Part shown: positions 2,806-12,239 of the stretch, in pieces | Numbering within the stretch: the stretch's first letter is position 1 | Layout of the letters: every line of letters begins with the position of its first letter | Assembly (NCBI GenBank): GCA_946543095.1 | Contig: CAMNLO010000014.1 | Location: 1 to 13,249, forward strand | Source: an uncultured bacterium | GTDB taxonomy: Bacteria; Bacillota; Clostridia; Lachnospirales; Lachnospiraceae | Reading direction: 5' to 3' | Length of the DNA stretch: 13,249 bases | The notes under the pieces: generated by a model | What the model was told of the DNA's origin: nothing | Seen by the model: only the letters and a program-made list of their open reading frames with translations | Database searches by the model: none | Program-made: the position numbers and the translations under genes

Positions 2806-4737
2806 ATGGAAATCTTTGAACAGCAGGAAAACACCCCGGCCCCGATCCAGGTTGAGCATCATGAAAACCCGCAGCAGCAGCCCATTCAGCAGCAGCCGGT
2901 GGCACAGCAGCCTGTTCAGCAGCTTATTCAGCAGGAAGATGCCCCCCTGTTCATGCCCGGTCTTACCGGCTGGCGGGAACGCAGAAAAGCCATGTTTCAG
3001 GACAACAACTGGATGATGGCAAGAGAACAGATAGAAGTCCGGGAGGCAGAGAGGTACATGGGCAATGATGAGAGGCCCATGCAGATCCCCAAGGAGCAGG
3101 CAAACGCTGCCATCAGCCAGATGTACAGGGAAGTCTACGGACGTAAGATCGGCAGGCTGGAGCGCCATAAGATCCGGAAGGATCTCGAAAAGCAGCAGGC
3201 GAAGTGGCAGGACAGGGGGGAGACCGTGGATGCCTATTACCGCGATGTCAATGAACGGGAAGAAGACTTCCGGGACAGGAAATATAAGGACCTGAGGGAT
3301 CCCTGGAAATATATCGGGATGCTGGAGGAGCAGGAAGACCGGAAGACTCTGATGGACGGCTATGCGGACCAAAACCCGGAGCTGATCCGTAAGGGCTTAA
3401 GAGTGCTCTTTGACAGCTTTCTGAATATGAATATGAACCAGTTTAACTATAACACCACGGATGATCTTTACTACCGGTTTGGCAGGAATTACAGAACCGT
3501 CAAAGCCGGAATGGTCCTTCGCAATGCCATGCGGGATTATGAGCAAAACGGCGGCGTTTTCAAGCACGATGAGTATGTCCGCCTGCAGGCCATTTGCGAT
3601 ATCATGGAGGACCTGAACAAGCTGTATGCACCGTTGGATGATCTTCACACACATCCTGCGGATTATCTGCTTGATCAGAAGGAGCTGGCGAAAAAGTCAA
3701 ATGATGAGCTGGTGGAGATGGCGGACAGTGTTTCGGATCATATGCTCGAGCATGATGTCGGAAGCAGTGAGTACAAGAGATTGGACAATCTGAGAAAATA
3801 TCTGCTGAACTACAGGAACAGCAGGGAGTACAAGGCGGGCAACCTGTTAAAGCCCGGGGGAAGCGCTCAGGAATATTTCGAAAAGGCTCTGAAGGAACGC
3901 GGGGAGAAGGAAGCCGCAAGGTGGTTTGTACAAAGGGATGGCTATCAGGCAAGGAAGCAGGAGATCGATCATGTCTTAAGCCCCGCAAAGATCCATCAGC
4001 TGACTGAAGAGAAAGGACTGCCTCTGGAGCAGGGCCATCGCTGGTCCGGAAGCAGAAACGTGGAGACCCTTCAGGCATCCATGATGGAGCTGTATCATCT
4101 GGGAAGCACCGGCGGTGCGACTCTGGAGAAGCTCATCGGGGAAGAGGGGATGCAGGGCTTTGACCATAGCGCTGACTCCCTGCGGTATTTGATCGCACAG
4201 GGAGATCCGGAATCTCTTGGGAAGGCGCTTGCCATCATAATGAAAGGCTTCGTCAACCAGTTCATCGGAGAGTACGGCGAGGAAAACTATAAGCAGTTTG
4301 CGGGACAGAAGGCAAGCTCGGAAACCTTCGGGAGAAACACCGCAATGCTGGAGCATATGATCCGTCTGTCCAACGATCTGAAGCTTCTGGCAGGAAAAGA
4401 TCAGGAGGTGACGCAGAATGCGCTGGACCGGATGACCGAAAGGGAAAAGACCCTTCTGAAAAAGGGCACAGAGTATCTGGCCCGCATGGAGAGACTGAAT
4501 TTTGCCACCTTCAGGATCTTCTCCCTGGACAAGTCTCATGATGTTGCCTCCGCCAAAATCTTTGCCGGGGAAAAGGACAGGACCAATGACGAATCGGTGG
4601 AGGTATTTAACGATATCTATCTGTATTACTCCGAAACGAAGAAGGAGGATGAGATCGGGGCGTGGCCGGATGACCCCGCAGAGCCCGTCATCCGGTTTGG
4701 AGGTAAGGAGTTCGACCTTCGGGACGTGAAGCAGTAA
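2806..4737 (+). CDS. Large helix-rich protein of unknown function (L1)
   Basis: A 643-residue protein I do not recognise. No signal peptide or membrane segment is visible, so it is probably cytosolic. Residues 6-45 form a low-complexity Gln/Pro tail (units like QQQPI, QQQPV, AQQPV). After that the protein is highly charged and looks almost wholly alpha-helical, with a basic helical stretch at about 109-165 and only one cysteine (264). Residues 225-236 read FGRNYRTVKAGM, closely matched in L2 (FGKHYGEVKAEM), so the two are probably distant relatives. I chose the ATG at 2806 because AAAGGG at 2791-2796 precedes it. An in-frame TTG at 2788 lacks a binding site. It opens a six-gene array in which such proteins alternate with tandem-GNAT proteins, which argues that it works with its GNAT-like neighbour as partner, scaffold or substrate. 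That role is inference. Confidence 0.85.
   Translation: MEIFEQQENTPAPIQVEHHENPQQQPIQQQPVAQQPVQQLIQQEDAPLFMPGLTGWRERRKAMFQDNNWMMAREQIEVREAERYMGNDERPMQIPKEQANAAISQMYREVYGRKIGRLERHKIRKDLEKQQAKWQDRGETVDAYYRDVNEREEDFRDRKYKDLRDPWKYIGMLEEQEDRKTLMDGYADQNPELIRKGLRVLFDSFLNMNMNQFNYNTTDDLYYRFGRNYRTVKAGMVLRNAMRDYEQNGGVFKHDEYVRLQAICDIMEDLNKLYAPLDDLHTHPADYLLDQKELAKKSNDELVEMADSVSDHMLEHDVGSSEYKRLDNLRKYLLNYRNSREYKAGNLLKPGGSAQEYFEKALKERGEKEAARWFVQRDGYQARKQEIDHVLSPAKIHQLTEEKGLPLEQGHRWSGSRNVETLQASMMELYHLGSTGGATLEKLIGEEGMQGFDHSADSLRYLIAQGDPESLGKALAIIMKGFVNQFIGEYGEENYKQFAGQKASSETFGRNTAMLEHMIRLSNDLKLLAGKDQEVTQNALDRMTEREKTLLKKGTEYLARMERLNFATFRIFSLDKSHDVASAKIFAGEKDRTNDESVEVFNDIYLYYSETKKEDEIGAWPDDPAEPVIRFGGKEFDLRDVKQ
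2872..2934 (+). repeat. CAG-rich in-frame repeat in L1
   Basis: An imperfect repeat of CAG codons interrupted by Pro/Val/Ile codons encodes residues 23-43 of L1 (Q-Q-Q-P-I, Q-Q-Q-P-V, A-Q-Q-P-V, Q-Q-L-I, Q-Q). Such runs can change length by slippage. It makes a flexible tail or linker. Confidence 0.75.
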
Positions 4738-4764
4738 TCCTTCCACCCCATACTGTAAGGAACT

Positions 4765-4833
4765 GAAACGAAATAACTTCACCGTTTCCTTCGCCGCAGG
4801 AACCATATACGACAGTTCCTGCAGCGAAGAGGA
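4765..4833 (+). promoter_or_regulatory. Tandem hairpins between L1 and G1
   Basis: The 155-base gap between L1 and G1 holds a strong stem: CTTCGC 4789-4794 and GCAGGAAC 4796-4803 pair with GTTCCTGC 4815-4822 and GCGAAG 4824-4829, giving 14 pairs around one C/A mismatch and an 11-base loop. Just before it, GAAACG 4765-4770 can pair with CGTTTC 4783-4788. No U-run follows, so it is not a standard intrinsic terminator. It could set mRNA stability or processing, or lower readthrough into G1. Confidence 0.5.
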
Positions 4834-4892
4834 CTGAGGGATTCCTGACCGGTTCCTGAGTAATTGTCACGAAAGAGAGAAAAGAGGATCAC

Positions 4893-6269
4893 ATGAGGAC
4901 CATTACAGAGATCGGATCGGATAATTATTCCTGTTTTGCGCCCCTTATGCCTGAGGTGGCCCCGGGAGACAATGTGCTGATGCTGGGGATCATTGAGGAG
5001 GATAAGGCCGCAGGTGCCCTTGCTTCCCTTTTGGAGAACGAGGTGGCATCCATCATTGCCCTTATGGTGGCGGAGGAGGACAGGCGAAAGGGGATCGGGA
5101 AGGAACTGGTGGATTTCTTCATGAACCTGGCGGAGCATGTAGGGGTGGAGGGCGTCCTTGCGGTGTACCCCGAGGAGAAGGAAGATCTGAACGGCTTTTT
5201 TGATGCTCTGGGCTTCTGGATCGAAGAGGGAGAACCGGTCTATTCTATAGCGATGAAGGACCTGTTTTCCTCCGAGAGAGTGCGAAAGAAGCTGGCAGCG
5301 GCAGACAGGGACAGCTGCAGGAGCCTGTCTTCCTTAAGCCCCGGGGAAAAGGAACAGCTTACGGCACTGCTTCTGGAAGCGGGTTATTCCCTGCAGGACC
5401 AGCAGGATCTGGGAATGGATCCGGATCTGTCCTTTACCCTGTTTGCCCAGGGAAGGCCTCAGGGAGTGGTCATTGCGGGCAGGGAGGAGAAGGATCTGTT
5501 CATTCATCTTCTGTATGACCGGAAGCCCACCGGACCGGAGACTCCGATCCTTCTTCTGGCCGCCTGCTTAAGCGAGGCAAGGGAGCTGACCTATCTGGAA
5601 AGGCTTGTTTTTGTGGCAGGGAAGGGAAGTGTGGTATCTCTGGCAAAGAACATGGCGGATCATCCGGAAATGCTGAAGCGGGAAAATCCGGTGAAAAAGG
5701 CGGTGATGCCGCTGCTTACCGCAAGACAGAGACGCCGCATGGAGGAGGATCAGGCTGCGGCGGAGAACACCTTCGGAGCCCGGGAGTCAAAGGAAGGGGA
5801 GGGCAGCGCATTTCCCGTAAGGCGGTACCGTACCACTCTGGGGGAGCTGATGGCACGGCCCCTCTATGTAAAGCAGAAGAATGCAAAGCTTCTGGCAAGG
5901 CCCTTATCTGCCTTAAGACCCGCTGAATACAAGGCATTCACTGCGTTTGCGGAGGCCTGCTCCCATGGCGGAGGCGGGGAGCGGGTCTGGGATCATTCTC
6001 CGGATTGCAGCGGCGTGGTGGAAAGAAACGGAAAACCGAACAGCTTCCTGCTGGTAAAGCTGGGTTCGGATGGCAGGGTCTATATGGACGATCTTTATCT
6101 GAAGCTGGGAGAGAACAGAGACTTTTATGAGCTGGTGCTCCTTTCCATCAGGCAGCTTGCCGGGAGGCTTCCGGAAAGCGCTCCCGTATACTATGTCTGC
6201 AGGAGAGCGGAAGGAGCAAAGCTGGTGGAGCATTTTTATCCGGGACTTGACTTTGAGATCATGGAGTGA
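4893..6269 (+). CDS. Three-module GNAT-like acetyltransferase (G1)
   Basis: A 458-residue protein. Residues 1-124 are a GNAT domain: motif A runs IIALMVAEEDRRKGIGKEL with the CoA loop RRKGIG at 64-69, and motif B is GFFDALGF at 101-108. Two more stretches, about 145-275 and 338-458, repeat the look of a degenerate GNAT half: a helix, a G-x-P-type turn, a beta strand of the form LLV/VVI, a hydrophobic helix and a final strand with helix. They lack a glycine CoA loop. The charged linker at about 276-335 separates them. So I read one active-looking module plus two pseudo-modules. The start has GAGGA at 4884-4888. The N-terminal pattern NYSCFAPLMPE (11-21) recurs in G2 and G3. It lies between the two helical proteins L1 and L2. 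The substrate is unknown. Confidence 0.85.
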   Translation: MRTITEIGSDNYSCFAPLMPEVAPGDNVLMLGIIEEDKAAGALASLLENEVASIIALMVAEEDRRKGIGKELVDFFMNLAEHVGVEGVLAVYPEEKEDLNGFFDALGFWIEEGEPVYSIAMKDLFSSERVRKKLAAADRDSCRSLSSLSPGEKEQLTALLLEAGYSLQDQQDLGMDPDLSFTLFAQGRPQGVVIAGREEKDLFIHLLYDRKPTGPETPILLLAACLSEARELTYLERLVFVAGKGSVVSLAKNMADHPEMLKRENPVKKAVMPLLTARQRRRMEEDQAAAENTFGARESKEGEGSAFPVRRYRTTLGELMARPLYVKQKNAKLLARPLSALRPAEYKAFTAFAEACSHGGGGERVWDHSPDCSGVVERNGKPNSFLLVKLGSDGRVYMDDLYLKLGENRDFYELVLLSIRQLAGRLPESAPVYYVCRRAEGAKLVEHFYPGLDFEIME

Positions 6270-6283
6270 TTCAGGAGGCATTT

Positions 6284-8986
6284 ATGGCAGAAATCATTTT
6301 GAATGAACCAGAGCAGCTCAGACAGACACCGGTCTTTACCTCTGATGCCGAAAGAGAGCTCTTTGACAGGGAGCAGGGGAACGAGATCCTGCGGGAGTAC
6401 CAGGCACGGCAGAAGCTGCATTCCGATCAGATGGGAAATACTGCTCTGTTTCATGAAAGCATCAAACCGGTCTATGGGGCCATCGCGGAGGTGCATGAGA
6501 CAGATCAGGGGTGGAAATCGAGAAAGCTTAAGAAGCTGATGCAGAAAAGGCGGCTGAAGAAGGGACTGCGCCTTACCCGGAATGCCACGGAATACACGGT
6601 GTCTATCCTGGAATATGAAAAAAAGCTGGAGAAAGACCGGGCCCGGGGAAAGATCAAGCCCCCCGACGAGTCCTATACAGCCCTCGAAGGATTGAGACAG
6701 ACGGTTTTAGGCAAACGCTACAGCCCTGTATTATTTGATCAGGAATACTTTGGAAAACACTATGGCGAAGTGAAGGCCGAGATGGAGGAGCTGGGCCGTT
6801 TTCTTGAATATTTCGGGGAGGGCAAAGAGAGATTCACAAGCATGAGCTACGGGGATATGGCAAGAACCCGGGATCTGGCAAAGATCTACGCCGCCATGGA
6901 AAACGCCATGACCGTCACGCTTTCCCTGCATGGGATCAAAAAAGAGGCTGAAGGCTTTGCCATCGAGAGCCATGATCGTATTGCCGCCGCTTCTGCCCAC
7001 AGGGAATGCCTGCAGACTCTGAGCGGCCGCATTTCGGAAGCCGCTGTAAACGAGACAGCGATCCTGAGCATGGAATCCGGGGACATCGAAACAAAGAACG
7101 ACCAGTGGGACTGGATCACTGAATTCCCCGATGTATATAAGCGGTTCGGATTTGTAAAGCTTGCGGACCGTTCCGATTATGAAAAGGTCTCAAGGATCCT
7201 GAAGCTGAAGGAGGAAGCTGAAAATACAGGAGGAGTCACGAAAAGCAATGAGCTTGCAGACAGGATCCTCATGGATGCCCTGCGGGCGGGGGAGGCGTAC
7301 GCTTATCATGCCAGAGCGTATGCGGCATGGGAGGAAACAAGAGACACTTTGCAGGCGATACAGCCCGCAAATGTGAACCTGGCCAACCCTGACCGCAACG
7401 ATCCGGAGGTTCGTCAGGTGAGATCGAGACTGGATTATGTCACGAAAAGACTGCGCACGGAAGAACTCAGACATCAGGCATATCAGCAGAGATTTGACAC
7501 TCTTCTTACAGGTCTGAACTATCTGATCACAGGGCAGCGGGAGGAGATGAGCAGGGATTCCTGGAGGACCCTCGCCTCTTATGGCAATGAAGAGGCGAAG
7601 AAGGAGGTGGCTTCGGATCTGACGGACCCGCAGTTCTATTCGAACATCATGCAAAAAAAGAGAAAGCTGTTTCAGGAGGCATGTGAAAGATATTCCGCAA
7701 AGCATGGGAATATGGAAGGGGTGGAGAAGCTCAATGGTCAGAAAGTCGCTGAATACATGAGCTTTGAGGATACGGAGTATAATGACAGGATCATAGCGTT
7801 CATGGTCAAAAGAGAGATGTTTCGCGGAGAAGACGGAGACGGCCTGTTTGCCGGGAAACCCGAAACAAACGATCCGGAGGCGCTTGCTCTCGCAAGGGAA
7901 GCCGCTGCGCTCATAGCCCCGAAGATCCGGGCCATTGAGGAGTATAATACCGGTGGTATGGAAAACCTTTCTCCGGAGGATCTGAGCTTAAAACTGGCGG
8001 AGCTTCAGGAGCTGGTTTTTGCGGATCATATGATCAATGACCTGAGGGATCTGCCGATGAAGGTCATCGGCCTCACTGCAAGGGAAAAGGAACAGCTGCT
8101 GGAATTGCCGGACAAGATCATACCGGATGATGAGACACCGGAGGAAGAGATCAGACGGGAAAGATATGCAGCAAAATGGGCGGCGTATACAGGAAAAAAC
8201 TGGCTGATCAAGGGGCTTCATCACCGGGCGCGTGCGGCAGCGCTGTTCTCTGTGGCGCAGCTCTCCGAAGAGATTCCCTTCTCCCTCCTTCTGACTGAGC
8301 GTGAGAAAGCGGATCTGGAAAGGAAATGCAGGGGACGTTCCGACCGGGAAAAGCTGTTCATTTTTGCCCATGATGAGTACAGGGACGGGATCTTCGCTGA
8401 GGATAATGCAAAGTATAGCCTGCTGAGCGCGGACAGGGGGATCTATCAACATCTGAAAAAAGAGGAACAGCGCAGCAAGCAAAAAGAGCTTGCACCCTAT
8501 ATGGATGGCTATATGCCCCCGCAGCCGGTGTTTCTGGATAAGGGATCGCAGGAAAAGAGCTTCAGCAGGCAGTATGCTGCCATCGAGAGCCATTATGGAA
8601 TGGTGGAGAGAAAATACGGGCATGAACTGCCGGATCTGGCCTTCATGATGGAACACAGGAGCGAAATGCTCCGCGATCTTCATAACATCGATTCTGACCT
8701 GGAGCTTTTGGAAAAGGACAGGGACGTGCTGATCCAGGAAACGGAAGGGGCTTTGCGCCTGCTCCATGTTTTAAGGTACTTCAGGCACTTCAGGGATTGT
8801 ATCGCGGATATCATCCCGAACGCCATTCTGCGGGAGGTGCCTGATGTAGAGGATAATGCGCCGGAGAATGGCGATGCGGATTTCAGGCCCTTATACCGGC
8901 GTTTGATCGGAATGGCGAAAGCGCATCTGGCAGAAGTGTCGCAGGATCTTGAGTATCTGAAAGAGCATCCGCAGAAGGGGAACTGA
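6284..8986 (+). CDS. Very large helix-rich protein of unknown function (L2)
   Basis: A 900-residue, strongly charged, almost all-helical protein that I do not recognise. It has no visible signal peptide or membrane span and no enzyme motif I can name. Residues 156-167 read FGKHYGEVKAEM, matching FGRNYRTVKAGM in L1. A GLR lies before the motif in both, about 20 residues ahead here and about 30 in L1. A basic helix at about 78-97 (rich in K/R) recalls the basic helical part of L1. Proline-acidic linkers, for example around PDDETPEEE, suggest several helical blocks. A GTG at 6266 overlaps the G1 stop, but AGGAGG at 6273-6278 lies five bases before the ATG at 6284, which I chose. The gene follows G1 after 14 bases and precedes G2 by 29 bases, so it is co-transcribed. 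A scaffold or modified substrate for the GNAT-like partners is possible but only inferred. Confidence 0.85.
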   Translation: MAEIILNEPEQLRQTPVFTSDAERELFDREQGNEILREYQARQKLHSDQMGNTALFHESIKPVYGAIAEVHETDQGWKSRKLKKLMQKRRLKKGLRLTRNATEYTVSILEYEKKLEKDRARGKIKPPDESYTALEGLRQTVLGKRYSPVLFDQEYFGKHYGEVKAEMEELGRFLEYFGEGKERFTSMSYGDMARTRDLAKIYAAMENAMTVTLSLHGIKKEAEGFAIESHDRIAAASAHRECLQTLSGRISEAAVNETAILSMESGDIETKNDQWDWITEFPDVYKRFGFVKLADRSDYEKVSRILKLKEEAENTGGVTKSNELADRILMDALRAGEAYAYHARAYAAWEETRDTLQAIQPANVNLANPDRNDPEVRQVRSRLDYVTKRLRTEELRHQAYQQRFDTLLTGLNYLITGQREEMSRDSWRTLASYGNEEAKKEVASDLTDPQFYSNIMQKKRKLFQEACERYSAKHGNMEGVEKLNGQKVAEYMSFEDTEYNDRIIAFMVKREMFRGEDGDGLFAGKPETNDPEALALAREAAALIAPKIRAIEEYNTGGMENLSPEDLSLKLAELQELVFADHMINDLRDLPMKVIGLTAREKEQLLELPDKIIPDDETPEEEIRRERYAAKWAAYTGKNWLIKGLHHRARAAALFSVAQLSEEIPFSLLLTEREKADLERKCRGRSDREKLFIFAHDEYRDGIFAEDNAKYSLLSADRGIYQHLKKEEQRSKQKELAPYMDGYMPPQPVFLDKGSQEKSFSRQYAAIESHYGMVERKYGHELPDLAFMMEHRSEMLRDLHNIDSDLELLEKDRDVLIQETEGALRLLHVLRYFRHFRDCIADIIPNAILREVPDVEDNAPENGDADFRPLYRRLIGMAKAHLAEVSQDLEYLKEHPQKGN

Positions 8987-9015
8987 TTGAAAGGAAAACC
9001 GGTCAGGAGGTGATC

Positions 9016-9912
9016 ATGAGCACTATATATCAGATCAGTAAACGAAACTATCGGGAATTGGCTCCTATCCTGCCGGAGGATATCATTTCCTGGGCAGAGG
9101 AGTCCGGAGAGATCCGGATATACGTCATTGAGGAGGATGAGGAGACAGTGGGCTGCGCGGCAGTGGAGCTGTCCGTCCCCAGGGCCGAGCTTCTGTGGTT
9201 TTATGTGACGGAGGACTACAGAGGCTATGGGATCGGAAGAGAAAGCTTTTTCAGCCTGCTCTCAGATCTCCGGGATGCCAGAGCCTATGAGCTTTCCGCA
9301 GAGCTTAGTGCCGGCACGAAAGAGAGCTTTGTCAGCCTGTTTGGAGGCTATCCTGTCTCCTATGAGCATATTGCGGCCTGCAATGTGTCCTTTCCGGCAG
9401 AAGAAGTGAACAAAGCCGGAGAGCTTTTAAAGCCTTCCGTGCATTCTGTTTCCCTGCGCTCTGTGAGCAAAGAGGAGCTGGAGGCTCTTCAGCAAAAGCT
9501 TTCGGAAGAAGGAAAGGATATCATGGATGTCCGGGAAGAAGGGTATAATTCCACCCTCTCCACCGTATATCAAAAGGACGGTGAGGCGCTGGGGGCTTTG
9601 CTGTTTAAGAGAAAGGGCTCCAATGCGGTCTCCCTTTCCTTTGCGGCCACTGTTTCAGACGATCAGGTGGCGTTTCTGGATATGCTCCGTTATGCGGCGG
9701 GAATGATCAGGCAGCTCCCTGCCGGAACCATGGTGGAAATGAATATCCTGGATCAGAAGCTGAGGGATTTTCTGATGACCCTCATGAAGGATGCGGACCA
9801 TCTTGAGATCAAAGAAGGACAGCTTGCCACACTGTCTCTTTCCTATCTGGACAGGCTGAAGGAGGAGGCGGAAGCTGAGACAGAGCTGATAAAGGAGCTG
9901 TTCGCCCTATGA
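9016..9912 (+). CDS. Two-module GNAT-like acetyltransferase (G2)
   Basis: A 298-residue protein with two GNAT-like halves. The N-terminal half (1 to about 135) starts NYRELAPILPE (11-21), as in G1 and G3. It carries motif A as LLWFYVTEDYRGYGIG with the CoA loop RGYGIG at 69-74, so it can probably bind acetyl-CoA. Motif B is less clear (SLFGGYPV at 107-114). The C-terminal half (about 145-275) has helix LEALQQKL, the turn and strand GEALGALLFKRK (189-200), a strand SLSFAATV and a final helix. It lacks the glycine loop and resembles the extra modules of G1 and G3. An acidic helical tail ends the protein. AGGAGG at 9005-9010 supports the ATG at 9016 over an in-frame GTG at 9010. The stop overlaps the L3 start by four bases (ATGA), a sign of coupled translation. 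Confidence 0.85.
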   Translation: MSTIYQISKRNYRELAPILPEDIISWAEESGEIRIYVIEEDEETVGCAAVELSVPRAELLWFYVTEDYRGYGIGRESFFSLLSDLRDARAYELSAELSAGTKESFVSLFGGYPVSYEHIAACNVSFPAEEVNKAGELLKPSVHSVSLRSVSKEELEALQQKLSEEGKDIMDVREEGYNSTLSTVYQKDGEALGALLFKRKGSNAVSLSFAATVSDDQVAFLDMLRYAAGMIRQLPAGTMVEMNILDQKLRDFLMTLMKDADHLEIKEGQLATLSLSYLDRLKEEAEAETELIKELFAL

Positions 9913-11402
9913 ATGCCCAGTCTTTTCTGAGCGCCAGGGAAAAGGGAGACATCTACCGTGAGAAGCGGAGCAGATACACGGTTTCCGCAGAGGTCCGGGG
10001 CCTTTCGCCGGAAAACATGTTTCATCTGGACACTGCCCATTTCGTTCTGGAGGAATACAAAACGGCAGCGGTAAAGCCGCTGTTATCCATCACCGGCACG
10101 GAGTTTGCCGACAGGCCTCCCACAGCTTCCGGCCAGCGGGCCTTCGCCCTTTCCGTTGCGGAAATGAAGAAGACCTTAGACGCCCTGAAGGAAGGGGAGG
10201 ATCCGACCGTAGAAGTGTGTTCCGCTTTTCGGGAGCCGGAGCGCTTCCGCAAGCTTCTGGATCAGACCGTCAGGTCCTTCTTCCTTGCCTGCGGGATGGA
10301 TGAACAGGATGAAAAGCTGAAGGATCACAAAGGCATCCGGGAAGGCAGGGAGAGTTTTTTTCGGTGCAGAACCGCTTTTGAGAAGCTTGTGAGTTCGGAA
10401 ACCGCATTCAGAAAACGGAAGCGGATGGAGGACTTCCGAAAGGAAAAGGGACTGGAGGAGCTTCCGGCTGCAGATCCCGTGGAGGAAGATCCGGAGGTTC
10501 TCAGGTTATGCGAGGAATATCCTGAGGCCTGTAAACAGTATCCGGATAAAATCCGGCAGATCAGGGAAGCAAGGCTTGAGAGCGAAAGAAAAGCACAGAG
10601 CATAAGAGCCGGCAGGGATGCGCTTTATGCGGAGGGAAAAAAGTATTTTCTGGATGAATCAAAGGACTGGGAGGACCGGTGCTTTTTCCGGGAGGCCTAT
10701 TTATCCTGGTCCCTTGAGGCGGAGGAACAGCTGAGGGAGCTTGCCTACACACGGCAGGCCGCGGACCGATTGCTGAACTGGCTGCTTTGTGAAGAGTGTG
10801 TGGACGAGATCATCTTTGAGCATATCATGAAGCACTTTGATCTTGCACCGAAGCTTCTGGACGGGGAAATGCTCTTAAAGGATCTGAAGGGATACGTCCA
10901 TCCGGATGAGGGCCTTTATTACCCCCTTCCCGCCCCGGGGGATATGGCTTCTGTCAGGGAGCGGGCCAGGGAGGTGTTCGGGTATGTGGAGGATCACCCG
11001 GACCAGTTTGAGGCCCAGAGCCTTCTCTCCATTGTTTCCGACACGGAAGGGCTGTGCCGCTGCACCGAAAAGGCCTGGTCCCTGGTGCAGTGGATCGATG
11101 CGTACACAATAACGGAAGCCTTCCGGGTGCTGGAGGGAAAGCACAAGATCGAGCTGTTTAAGATATGTGTGGAGATGGATGCGGTATGCCATGCGGGGCA
11201 TACCATGATGGATTTTCTGCTGGGGTATGAAAACAGGACCATAGAGGAGGCCTCCGAATGTCTGAGGCACACCCTGAACAGGATCTCTTTCAGCAGACTG
11301 GAAAAGCAGAGCAAGGAAGCTCTCGGAAGGATCTTTATGGAAAGGAGCGGCTTCCATGTATCACAGCAGAAGGATCGATTCCTCGAATATTTCGGAGTTT
11401 GA
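9909..11402 (+). CDS. Helix-rich, cysteine-rich protein of unknown function (L3)
   Basis: A 497-residue protein without a recognisable family. It looks helical and charged like L1 and L2, with a basic block around 168-182 (RKRKRMEDFRKEK) and a possible coiled region at about 215-235. It has 13 cysteines against one in L1, including CEEC (294-297), CRC (383-385) and a CHAGH cluster (427-431), which might bind metal or react with thiols. This is unproven. Similarity to L1/L2 is weak: only a tentative Y-x-x-x-x-VK stretch at 50-56. The start ATG at 9909 overlaps the G2 stop by four bases, with GGAG at 9894-9897. Its 3' end overlaps G3 by 47 bases. Position rather than sequence makes it the third member of the alternating set. 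Confidence 0.85.
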   Translation: MNAQSFLSAREKGDIYREKRSRYTVSAEVRGLSPENMFHLDTAHFVLEEYKTAAVKPLLSITGTEFADRPPTASGQRAFALSVAEMKKTLDALKEGEDPTVEVCSAFREPERFRKLLDQTVRSFFLACGMDEQDEKLKDHKGIREGRESFFRCRTAFEKLVSSETAFRKRKRMEDFRKEKGLEELPAADPVEEDPEVLRLCEEYPEACKQYPDKIRQIREARLESERKAQSIRAGRDALYAEGKKYFLDESKDWEDRCFFREAYLSWSLEAEEQLRELAYTRQAADRLLNWLLCEECVDEIIFEHIMKHFDLAPKLLDGEMLLKDLKGYVHPDEGLYYPLPAPGDMASVRERAREVFGYVEDHPDQFEAQSLLSIVSDTEGLCRCTEKAWSLVQWIDAYTITEAFRVLEGKHKIELFKICVEMDAVCHAGHTMMDFLLGYENRTIEEASECLRHTLNRISFSRLEKQSKEALGRIFMERSGFHVSQQKDRFLEYFGV

Positions 11403-12210
11403 AGCTCTCCTGCCGGAACACTACAGCCGGCAGATCCGGTCCGGACTGTTGTTCGGCGGCGCGGTATTTGAGCCGGAGGGGGAGGAGCAGCCCCCGGCTC
11501 TGGTCAGTGTGATGGCTTACAAAGGGGAGTGGCTGGAGCTGATCTGGATCGGGTTTCCGGACCGGACGAGGAGCGACAGCTTTTTTGCGGAGCTGATCCG
11601 TACCCTGATCCGCAGAGAGCGGTTTTACCGCGGACTTTCCCTGAAGGGAGTGTATGCGGAATTCCATTCGGATATCAAGCTCCGGTCGGAGAGGATCCGC
11701 AATGTGATGATCCTGGCCGGCATGGAGAGTATCATCACAAAGAGCAATGTCTATGAATTTCCCTTAAGCGCCGTGGAGGAGGCCAGTCTTTTGCAGAAGG
11801 CAAAGGGCAGGCTGAAATGCATTCCGCTTTCCGGGGCGAAGGGGGGGCTGTTTGATCAGCTGGATGAGCTGATCCAGACGGATGCAAGGCCCTCCCCCCT
11901 TCCTCTTTTTGTAAACTGGGACGTGTACCTTCAGGAGGAGAGCCTGATCTGCCTGATGGGAGAGGAGCCCTGCGGCATCCTTCTGTTTTCCCGGAACGGG
12001 GAATATCTCGTCATCGACTGTGCCTTTGTGACGCAGGCCATTGCCCTGCCCGTTCTGCTGGGGAATGCCTGCGCTTTTCTGAAGGAGCGATACGGGGAAG
12101 CACAGCGGATCCTGGTGCCGGTGGTCATCGACCGCACGGCCTCCATTGTGGAGCGTCTGGTCCCCGGGGCGGAGAGAGTGGATGTGGTGGAAGCGGTGCT
12201 GAGGCTGTAA
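11356..12210 (+). CDS. Degenerate two-module GNAT-like protein (G3)
   Basis: A 284-residue relative of G1 and G2. It starts with the shared pattern NISEFEALLPE (11-21) and keeps the strand before the CoA loop (LELIWIGF, 60-67). The loop itself reads PDRTRSDSF instead of R-x-x-G-x-G, so acetyl-CoA binding in the usual way is unlikely. The C-terminal half (about 150-284) has the same layout as in G2: a helix, PCGILLFSRNGEYLVID (205-221), a hydrophobic helix and a final strand/helix ending VLRL. I read it as a pseudo-acetyltransferase with a binding or regulatory job. The start is supported by GGAG at 11344-11347 and lies inside L3 (47-base overlap in another frame), so the two are probably translated in a coupled way. 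It is the last gene before a GC-rich hairpin. Confidence 0.8.
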   Translation: MYHSRRIDSSNISEFEALLPEHYSRQIRSGLLFGGAVFEPEGEEQPPALVSVMAYKGEWLELIWIGFPDRTRSDSFFAELIRTLIRRERFYRGLSLKGVYAEFHSDIKLRSERIRNVMILAGMESIITKSNVYEFPLSAVEEASLLQKAKGRLKCIPLSGAKGGLFDQLDELIQTDARPSPLPLFVNWDVYLQEESLICLMGEEPCGILLFSRNGEYLVIDCAFVTQAIALPVLLGNACAFLKERYGEAQRILVPVVIDRTASIVERLVPGAERVDVVEAVLRL

Positions 12211-12212
12211 CG

Positions 12213-12239
12213 TGCGGGGCCGTGCAAAGCACGGCCGCA
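12213..12239 (+). terminator. GC-rich hairpin at the end of the L/G operon
   Basis: GGCCGTGC at 12218-12225 pairs perfectly with GCACGGCC at 12229-12236 around an AAA loop. TGC 12213-12215 and GCA 12237-12239 can extend the stem past two bulged Gs. It starts just after the G3 stop. The tract after it is pyrimidine-rich (TCCCTCCGTCC) rather than a U-run, so it may be a weak terminator or a 3' stability stem. Confidence 0.55.

Follow-up and report, generated by a model that had tools for sequence, protein, structure and literature searches.

What are three pairs of genes, each a large protein followed by a protein of tandem-GNAT type, doing in a single row on a contig from a gut Lachnospiraceae bacterium? 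The window analyzed here is the entire contig C14 (CAMNLO010000014.1, 13,249 bp) of a source genome of 2.04 Mb in 370 contigs that is 68% complete, and in it large proteins (L) and GNAT-type proteins (G) alternate as L1-G1-L2-G2-L3-G3. On balance we lean toward a reading in which a Lachnospiraceae contractile injection system (CIS), a phage-tail-like machine, has the Ls as its cargo effectors, each G being the dedicated loading partner of its own L. The case is built from sequence comparison, namely from the pairing of G with L, the co-occurrence and adjacency of G and CIS genes, toxin-type domains in some Ls, and a tracking of G similarity by the N-terminal part of L. Relatives of the window pairs that lie inside CIS clusters suggest a new kind of cargo-loading partner. 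The six genes, and a hairpin behind them, are as follows.

L1, positions 2806-4737, + strand: open reading frame of 643 amino acids (aa) with a glutamine/proline-rich (Q/P-rich) N-terminus, putative CIS cargo effector.
G1, positions 4893-6269, + strand: 458 aa, putative tandem-GNAT partner with its second domain copied once more (residues 310-458).
L2, positions 6284-8986, + strand: open reading frame of 900 aa counted from ATG, putative CIS cargo effector.
G2, positions 9016-9912, + strand: 298 aa counted from ATG, putative tandem-GNAT partner by AlphaFold2 and Foldseek.
L3, positions 9909-11402, + strand: 497 aa, predicted all-helical by AlphaFold2, putative CIS cargo effector.
G3, positions 11356-12210, + strand: 284 aa, putative G-family partner by profile match, with a degenerate coenzyme A (CoA) motif.
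Hairpin 3' of the operon, positions 12218-12236, + strand: 8-bp stem, possible transcript end, without a T run directly after.

The alternating layout is real. The first-pass annotation had described six co-directional genes in strict L-G alternation, and their coordinates, order and spacing are borne out by the open reading frames, which come from a simple greedy script and may have wrong start positions; in order from L1 to G3 the genes are separated by 155 nt, 14 nt, 29 nt, a 4-nt overlap and a 47-nt overlap. Moreover, the layout goes beyond chance, since relatives of L1-G1 and L3-G3 are found again as pairs on other contigs of the same genome, the former on C98 (L 33%, G 38% identity to the window) and the latter on C7 (L 29%, G 35%), where the two genes overlap by 38 nt as against 47 nt in the window. 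With 16 of 23 candidates scored, at least 15 G-family genes are spread over 11 contigs of this genome (C14, C98, C2, C7, C85, C15, C60, C71, C66, C5 and C84), and a large L adjoins the Gs on nine of these, the exceptions being C5 and C71 (contig end); contig C163 carries two more partial G matches.

The pairing extends to other genomes. From 117 loci, with small or overlapping ones dropped (L001-L007, L012-L022, L027-L056, L072 and L079-L088), we obtained 69 full-length Gs, and counted as a large neighbor any protein of at least 400 aa on the same strand within 200 nt that is neither CIS nor G. Such a neighbor accompanies 54 of the 69 Gs, as against 70 of 255 control genes of similar size drawn from the same loci, many of those loci chosen by a G or AAA match (Fisher p 2e-14); in a small control, it accompanies three of seven ordinary short GNATs in the same loci. 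G is the gene after its large neighbor in 27 cases. The filter did not pick up three Gs (on C60, on C71 and the second on C2), which we included manually in later analyses. The proposal of the first-pass annotation that L and G are partners is supported by these counts and by the recurring pairs; the outcome that it had set beforehand as speaking against this, Gs mostly without L neighbors, is not what the survey found.

The interpretation given with that annotation did not contain a CIS, which is our main point and which emerges from the loci of other genomes. In genomes G006, G041, G235, G424 and G201 the G-L pairs are encoded in or beside a CIS cluster, as those on the window contig are not. 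In G006 a row of CIS genes (baseplate J, P2_I, STAS, ABC-like, HATPase, AAA) ends with a G and an L, the latter truncated where the contig stops. In G041 a full CIS (Pvc16, DUF4280, sheath, tube, spike, gp25, baseplate) is preceded by several G-L pairs, some other genes lying in between; and in G424 and G201 G and L come after the AAA gene. G235 reads baseplate, P2_I, STAS, GHKL, a small gene, L, G, L, G, AAA, and on these names, assigned by similarity to G041, the L-G alternation of the window is seen inside a CIS operon. The genome of the window has CIS pieces of its own, on contigs C30 (Pvc16, sheath, two tube genes) and C142 (baseplate, P2_I, ABC, GHKL). A scan of 84,980 species genomes for the AAA ATPase gave 212 relatives; the analysis used the best 80 loci, several of which run into contig ends. 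Judging by their titles, these belong to Lachnospiraceae, Butyrivibrio, Pseudobutyrivibrio, Eubacterium and a small number of other groups, and many come from rumen. A full-length G lies no more than 10 kb away in 30 of these best 80 of 212, chosen by AAA alone, and a G stands directly after an AAA homologue in nine (11 cases in 10 loci overall).

Several other features of the CIS loci may be recorded here. Two AAA ATPase homologues are present in 19 of these 80 AAA loci (L096-L175), and in L158, L161, L163, L172 and L174 a G lies directly 3' of a more divergent copy (30-37% identity to that of G041). Very large related proteins come right after AAA (L077:11518-14445, and near 12 kb in L100, L102-L104, L107, L109 and L113); having a signal-like N-terminus and, in most, a C-terminal hydrophobic segment, they are likely surface proteins, not cargo. 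A match to the outer-membrane efflux protein family (OEP, PF02321), odd for a Gram-positive lineage, occurs in Lachnospiraceae CIS clusters at L076:1034-3166 (G041, E 8e-6) and, at no better than E 0.023, at L090:2159-4216 (G080). Genome G105 has eCIS_core (PF13699) genes at L066:8245-9825 and L093:5464-6600, one directly after a G and sharing a stretch with the neighboring Ntox11 L. G085 (L094, L095) has a related CIS whose baseplate score is intermediate, with no G within the stretch read.

Do G and CIS also occur together when whole genomes are compared? In a set of 145 relatives, six have a full-length G, and five of these six (G006, G041, G105, G080 and G000, the last being the window's own) are the genomes with the strongest baseplate matches; the remaining one, G023, is 60% complete. 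Across 397 family genomes, own included, full-length G is present in 17, a close CIS type (baseplate score of at least 690 bits, plus the truncated match of G000) in 16, and both in 13 (Fisher p 1.6e-18), the 145- and 397-genome sets overlapping and thus not being independent tests. Full-length G was found in none of the 22 genomes with lower-scoring baseplates. G343 was removed from the G count, its match being a partial one in a 155-aa frame, and G scoring was limited to the six best candidates per genome, so that absences of G are less certain than presences. The genomes with G and without the close CIS type are G023, G201, G398 and G434; opening the last three revealed CIS genes beside G in all three, and the AAA genes of G201 are 56-61% identical to those of G041.

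If the Ls are cargo, what kind of proteins are they? Most of those scanned are without a known domain. Ntox11 occurs in one G-adjacent L each of G105, G080 and G041, and a calpain (Peptidase_C2) domain in G-adjacent Ls of G424 and of the window's own genome, there in another G-L-G locus; the Cys, His and Asn motifs of the latter presumably fit the calpain family pattern. The calpain-domain L (L008:8870-11647) also matches PADLOC DruD at E 3.9e-8. In G041 a large open reading frame near a G contains an ABC1 kinase-like domain, and the motif GHSRGA in the L of C60, for which Pfam gave no match, resembles what we take to be a lipase nucleophile elbow. For the window proteins themselves, L1 has as relatives L_C98 (33% identity, paired with the G1 relative on contig C98) and one further database protein at 77%; L3 has L_C7a on contig C7 (29%) and four others at 46-69%; and the central and C-terminal segments of L2 match the profile of four CIS-locus Ls (L158/L161/L163/L170) at E 1.9e-12. 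The AlphaFold2 model of L3 (mean predicted local distance difference test, pLDDT, 80.7) is all-helical, in agreement with the earlier description of this protein, and has pLDDT under 50 at residues 1-7 and 18-33. In the first 50 aa, glutamine plus proline make up 15.1% in 50 Ls without a strong hydrophobic segment vs 6.8% in controls; the values for the window Ls are 44% (L1), 16% (L2) and 4% (L3).

Which part of L does G follow? We split L pairs between G clusters into those with a common stretch starting within the first 150 residues of both Ls and those without. In 14 of 15 N-sharing cluster pairs the Gs reach the 95th percentile of between-locus G similarity or more, as against 3 of 20 others (p 1.2e-5, the pairs not being independent), and one of these three, L158-L170, also has a common N-terminus by profile. 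By this comparison G similarity mostly appears to follow the N-terminal part of L rather than other common parts. In the clearest case the first ~300 residues are common to L161, L163, L170, L158, L065 and L131, the remainders differ, and the Gs are similar (96th-98th percentile). L2 and L063 match that N-terminal family in later segments only, and their Gs stand at the 41st-63rd percentile; G1, the gene before L2, scores higher against the Gs of that family (84th-92nd percentile). When N-sharing pairs have swapped gene order, five of six still lie at or above the 97th percentile, two of those being alike over most of their length, Ntox11 included. Similar Gs despite a swapped gene order mean that DNA linkage alone is no sufficient explanation.

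The G proteins carry, according to the structure model, a GNAT fold. The AlphaFold2 model of G2, made from an alignment of 38 G proteins, has a mean pLDDT of 94.9 and consists of two GNAT folds in tandem, and its close structural matches by Foldseek and VIA are tandem GNATs such as 2wpw, 5kf1 (glucosamine N-acetyltransferase), Legionella VipF, Eis and MshD, at 8-16% identity. Single-domain structural matches include RimI and Nat enzymes. Pfam assigns Acetyltransf_1 to G1 (E 8.5e-8) and G2 (E 6.2e-9); for G3 the sole Pfam match is DUF1853 at E 0.35, with no GNAT domain detected, and in the NCBIfam scan none of the six window proteins was named above cut-offs, RimI being the top match of G2 and far under its cut-off. 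The C-terminal module of G1 (residues 310-458) aligns with the second half of the G protein on C60 at E 6e-7, indicating a further copy of the second domain. G1 to G3 had been called clearly related. This is right for G1 and G2 (BLAST E 2.6e-6) and too strong for G3, which has no BLAST link to either and is tied to them by profile: a profile of 70 Gs built without G3 and its C7 relative finds G3 over nearly its full length at E 6.4e-23, the top match in this check, the second G of C2, belonging to the profile by construction. A motif said to be common to L1 and L2 was not reproduced, L1-L2 BLAST giving no match at E<1 and the L profiles finding no other window L; L1, L2 and L3 are mutually unrelated by BLAST and profile search. 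The suggested twofold duplication of a two-gene cassette therefore has homology across the three pairs on the G side and, the Ls not being detectably related, holds for G alone.

The acyl-CoA binding motif of GNATs is (R/Q)xxGx(G/A). A loose form of it, [RQK]xx[GA]x[GA], is kept at the first-domain motif site in 40 of 69 Gs and lost in 29; it is present in G1 and G2, and lost in G3 and in the C7 relative of G3. The strict motif is found within the first 120 residues of 45 of 72 Gs and in the second half of 3 of 72. With the loose pattern retained in just 40 of 69, pairing does not seem to require catalysis.

How could such pairs work? We propose that the CIS would be assembled inside the cell, each L being made together with its own G. 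The tandem GNAT fold of G would bind the N-terminal region of that L and keep it competent or inactive, and G would then hand L to the CIS-associated AAA ATPase, which would load it into the particle; the window operon would feed the CIS encoded elsewhere in its own genome. We infer binding, hand-over, loading and delivery from the gene-level evidence above. A broader proposal, which we put forward tentatively, as perhaps correct, is that the GNAT fold has been turned into effector-specific CIS loading chaperones, each reading the N-terminus of one cargo, often without catalysis, and passing that cargo to the AAA ATPase, one cell having at least 15 of them, mostly beside cargo genes and scattered genome-wide.

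Several observations weigh against reading the Ls as CIS cargo and the Gs as their loading partners. The window contig is without any CIS gene, and L1, L2 and L3 have neither a Pfam match up to E 1 nor an NCBIfam family, and hence no toxin domain recognisable by these two; a structure search with the L3 fold matched nothing at E<=0.001. Under the neighbor rule 15 of the 69 Gs are without an L, some of them sitting at contig ends. The cut between close and distant baseplates was chosen after the scores were seen; three genomes, G229 (76% complete), G444 (78%) and G231 (99%), have the close CIS and no G; and the CIS genes of G398 and G434 are of a more distant kind (sheath 51%, AAA 41% to G041), so that G is not confined to one CIS type. 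As for the N-terminal tracking, 19 of 69 Ls were excluded for a strong hydrophobic segment, L163 and L_C7a among them, the latter leaving the L3 pair outside the N-sharing count; six in-between pairs, at percentiles 97, 93, 71, 80, 38 and 98, were also excluded; some N-sharing L pairs have most of their length in common; and the Ntox11 L of L066 does not fit the correlation of L with G (39th-88th percentile).

Could G instead be a working acyl- or acetyltransferase that modifies its own L, for example by N-terminal acetylation or lysine acylation, and so activates it or marks it for loading? HlyC does lysine acylation on RTX toxins. An enzyme would account for the loose CoA pattern in the first GNAT domain of 40 Gs and would suit the RimI and Nat matches of G2, and G similarity that mostly tracks the L N-terminus speaks for it as well. 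However, the pattern is lost in the other 29, G3 included, though the L3-G3 pairing recurs, and the second half of the protein has the strict motif in so few Gs; we judge an enzymatic role unlikely, if still the most serious of the alternatives. A GNAT protein might also be a co-injected effector itself, made beside L and not for L. Secretion is known for tandem GNATs, among them Legionella VipF and mycobacterial Eis, the Foldseek matches include VipF (titled an effector) and Eis, and there are many G copies per genome. That G similarity follows the N-termini of the Ls, and that pairs are kept together despite swapped gene order, makes this improbable.

That G is an immunity protein, an antitoxin against its own L, we hold to be slightly more improbable still. 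There is often one G per toxin-like gene, in the 27 cases mentioned directly after it, and toxin-immunity pairs near eCIS (extracellular CIS) are described in the available part of PMC8213781. On the other side, Ls whose domains are unrelated all have partners of one conserved fold, the G that goes with the Ntox11 L of L066 is dissimilar, and G follows the L N-terminus (14 of 15 cluster pairs), not other common parts (3 of 20). Finally, the CIS link might be true for other G-L pairs only, the window operon being some other, unrelated system, as its contig without a CIS gene and the absence of toxin domains from L1-L3 would allow. We consider this about as improbable as co-injection, for CIS genes are present in the window's own genome, as is a calpain L within a different G-L-G locus, and L2 has segments in common with CIS-locus Ls.

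Selection and loading of CIS cargo is still an open question. In the available part of PMC11495950, loading of cargo of the Photorhabdus virulence cassette (PVC) is attributed to N-terminal signals plus the Pvc15 AAA ATPase, and how signal peptides target cargo is called largely elusive. The loci described here resemble eCIS/PVC cargo with Pvc15 in that toxin genes of varying kind adjoin a conserved CIS cluster which includes an AAA ATPase, and in that many Ls have Q/P-rich N-termini; they differ in that the putative cargo genes have their own tandem-GNAT partner and that many pairs lie far from the CIS cluster. According to the part of PMC6748791 available to us, JF50_12605 binds Mif1 and is required for the presence of Mif1 in the metamorphosis-associated contractile structures (MACs) of Pseudoalteromonas, and so offers a likeness in which a partner protein is needed to load one large cargo into the CIS tube. 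G, however, is a tandem GNAT and a multicopy family, and we set JF50_12605 beside it by description, not by sequence or fold. A further likeness is with the effector adaptors of type VI secretion systems, where one adaptor fold serves many unrelated effectors, each matched. The adaptor families there are DUF4123, DUF2169 and DUF1795, none of which matched in a Pfam scan of 12 Gs, whose fold is predicted to be GNAT instead. Known tandem GNATs (2wpw, 5kf1, MshD, Eis, VipF) likewise have two GNAT folds per chain, whereas they match G at 8-16% identity, and G has often lost the motif and is linked to putative CIS cargo genes. With toxin-activating acyltransferases of HlyC type, G has in common a GNAT-like fold encoded beside a large toxin, a likeness that we draw by description and not by sequence or structure comparison.

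One survey, in the part available, suggests DUF4157 as a possible chaperone (PMC11297309). In the main text of two eCIS toxin surveys (PMC8213781, PMC11297309) neither acetyltransferase nor Ntox11 was found, and in that of PMC11297309 neither Lachnospira nor Butyrivibrio. In literature on CIS with GNAT, acetyltransferase, Lachnospiraceae, Butyrivibrio or rumen, no link between a GNAT protein and CIS cargo was found. CIS cargo is already known as a class of proteins; its tandem-GNAT partner family appears to be undescribed in the literature searched. A partner family that is conserved and easy to recognise would offer a way into the loading step and would flag unknown effectors across whole genomes: every large gene adjoining a tandem-GNAT-family gene in Lachnospirales becomes candidate cargo. 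By the AAA scan, related CIS loci occur in many rumen metagenome-assembled genomes and isolates of Lachnospiraceae, for example Butyrivibrio, where the targets could be other bacteria, protozoa, fungi or the host.

Some details of the window itself may be added. That the six genes have one promoter is unproven, a promoter scan of the window having given none just upstream of L1; by eye, a TATAAT with a weak upstream hexamer lies around 2590-2620, 5' of L1. The end hairpin of the first-pass annotation is there as a stem, with folding moderately above shuffles (z -1.6; 8 of 200 shuffles as good) and the T run not directly after it. The operon is flanked on one side by a LysE-type exporter gene, itself preceded by a cysK-like gene for a pyridoxal phosphate enzyme, and on the other by a TRAP transporter DctQ gene. 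A single-domain GNAT gene at 277-765, upstream of the cysK-like gene, is probably unrelated to the G family.

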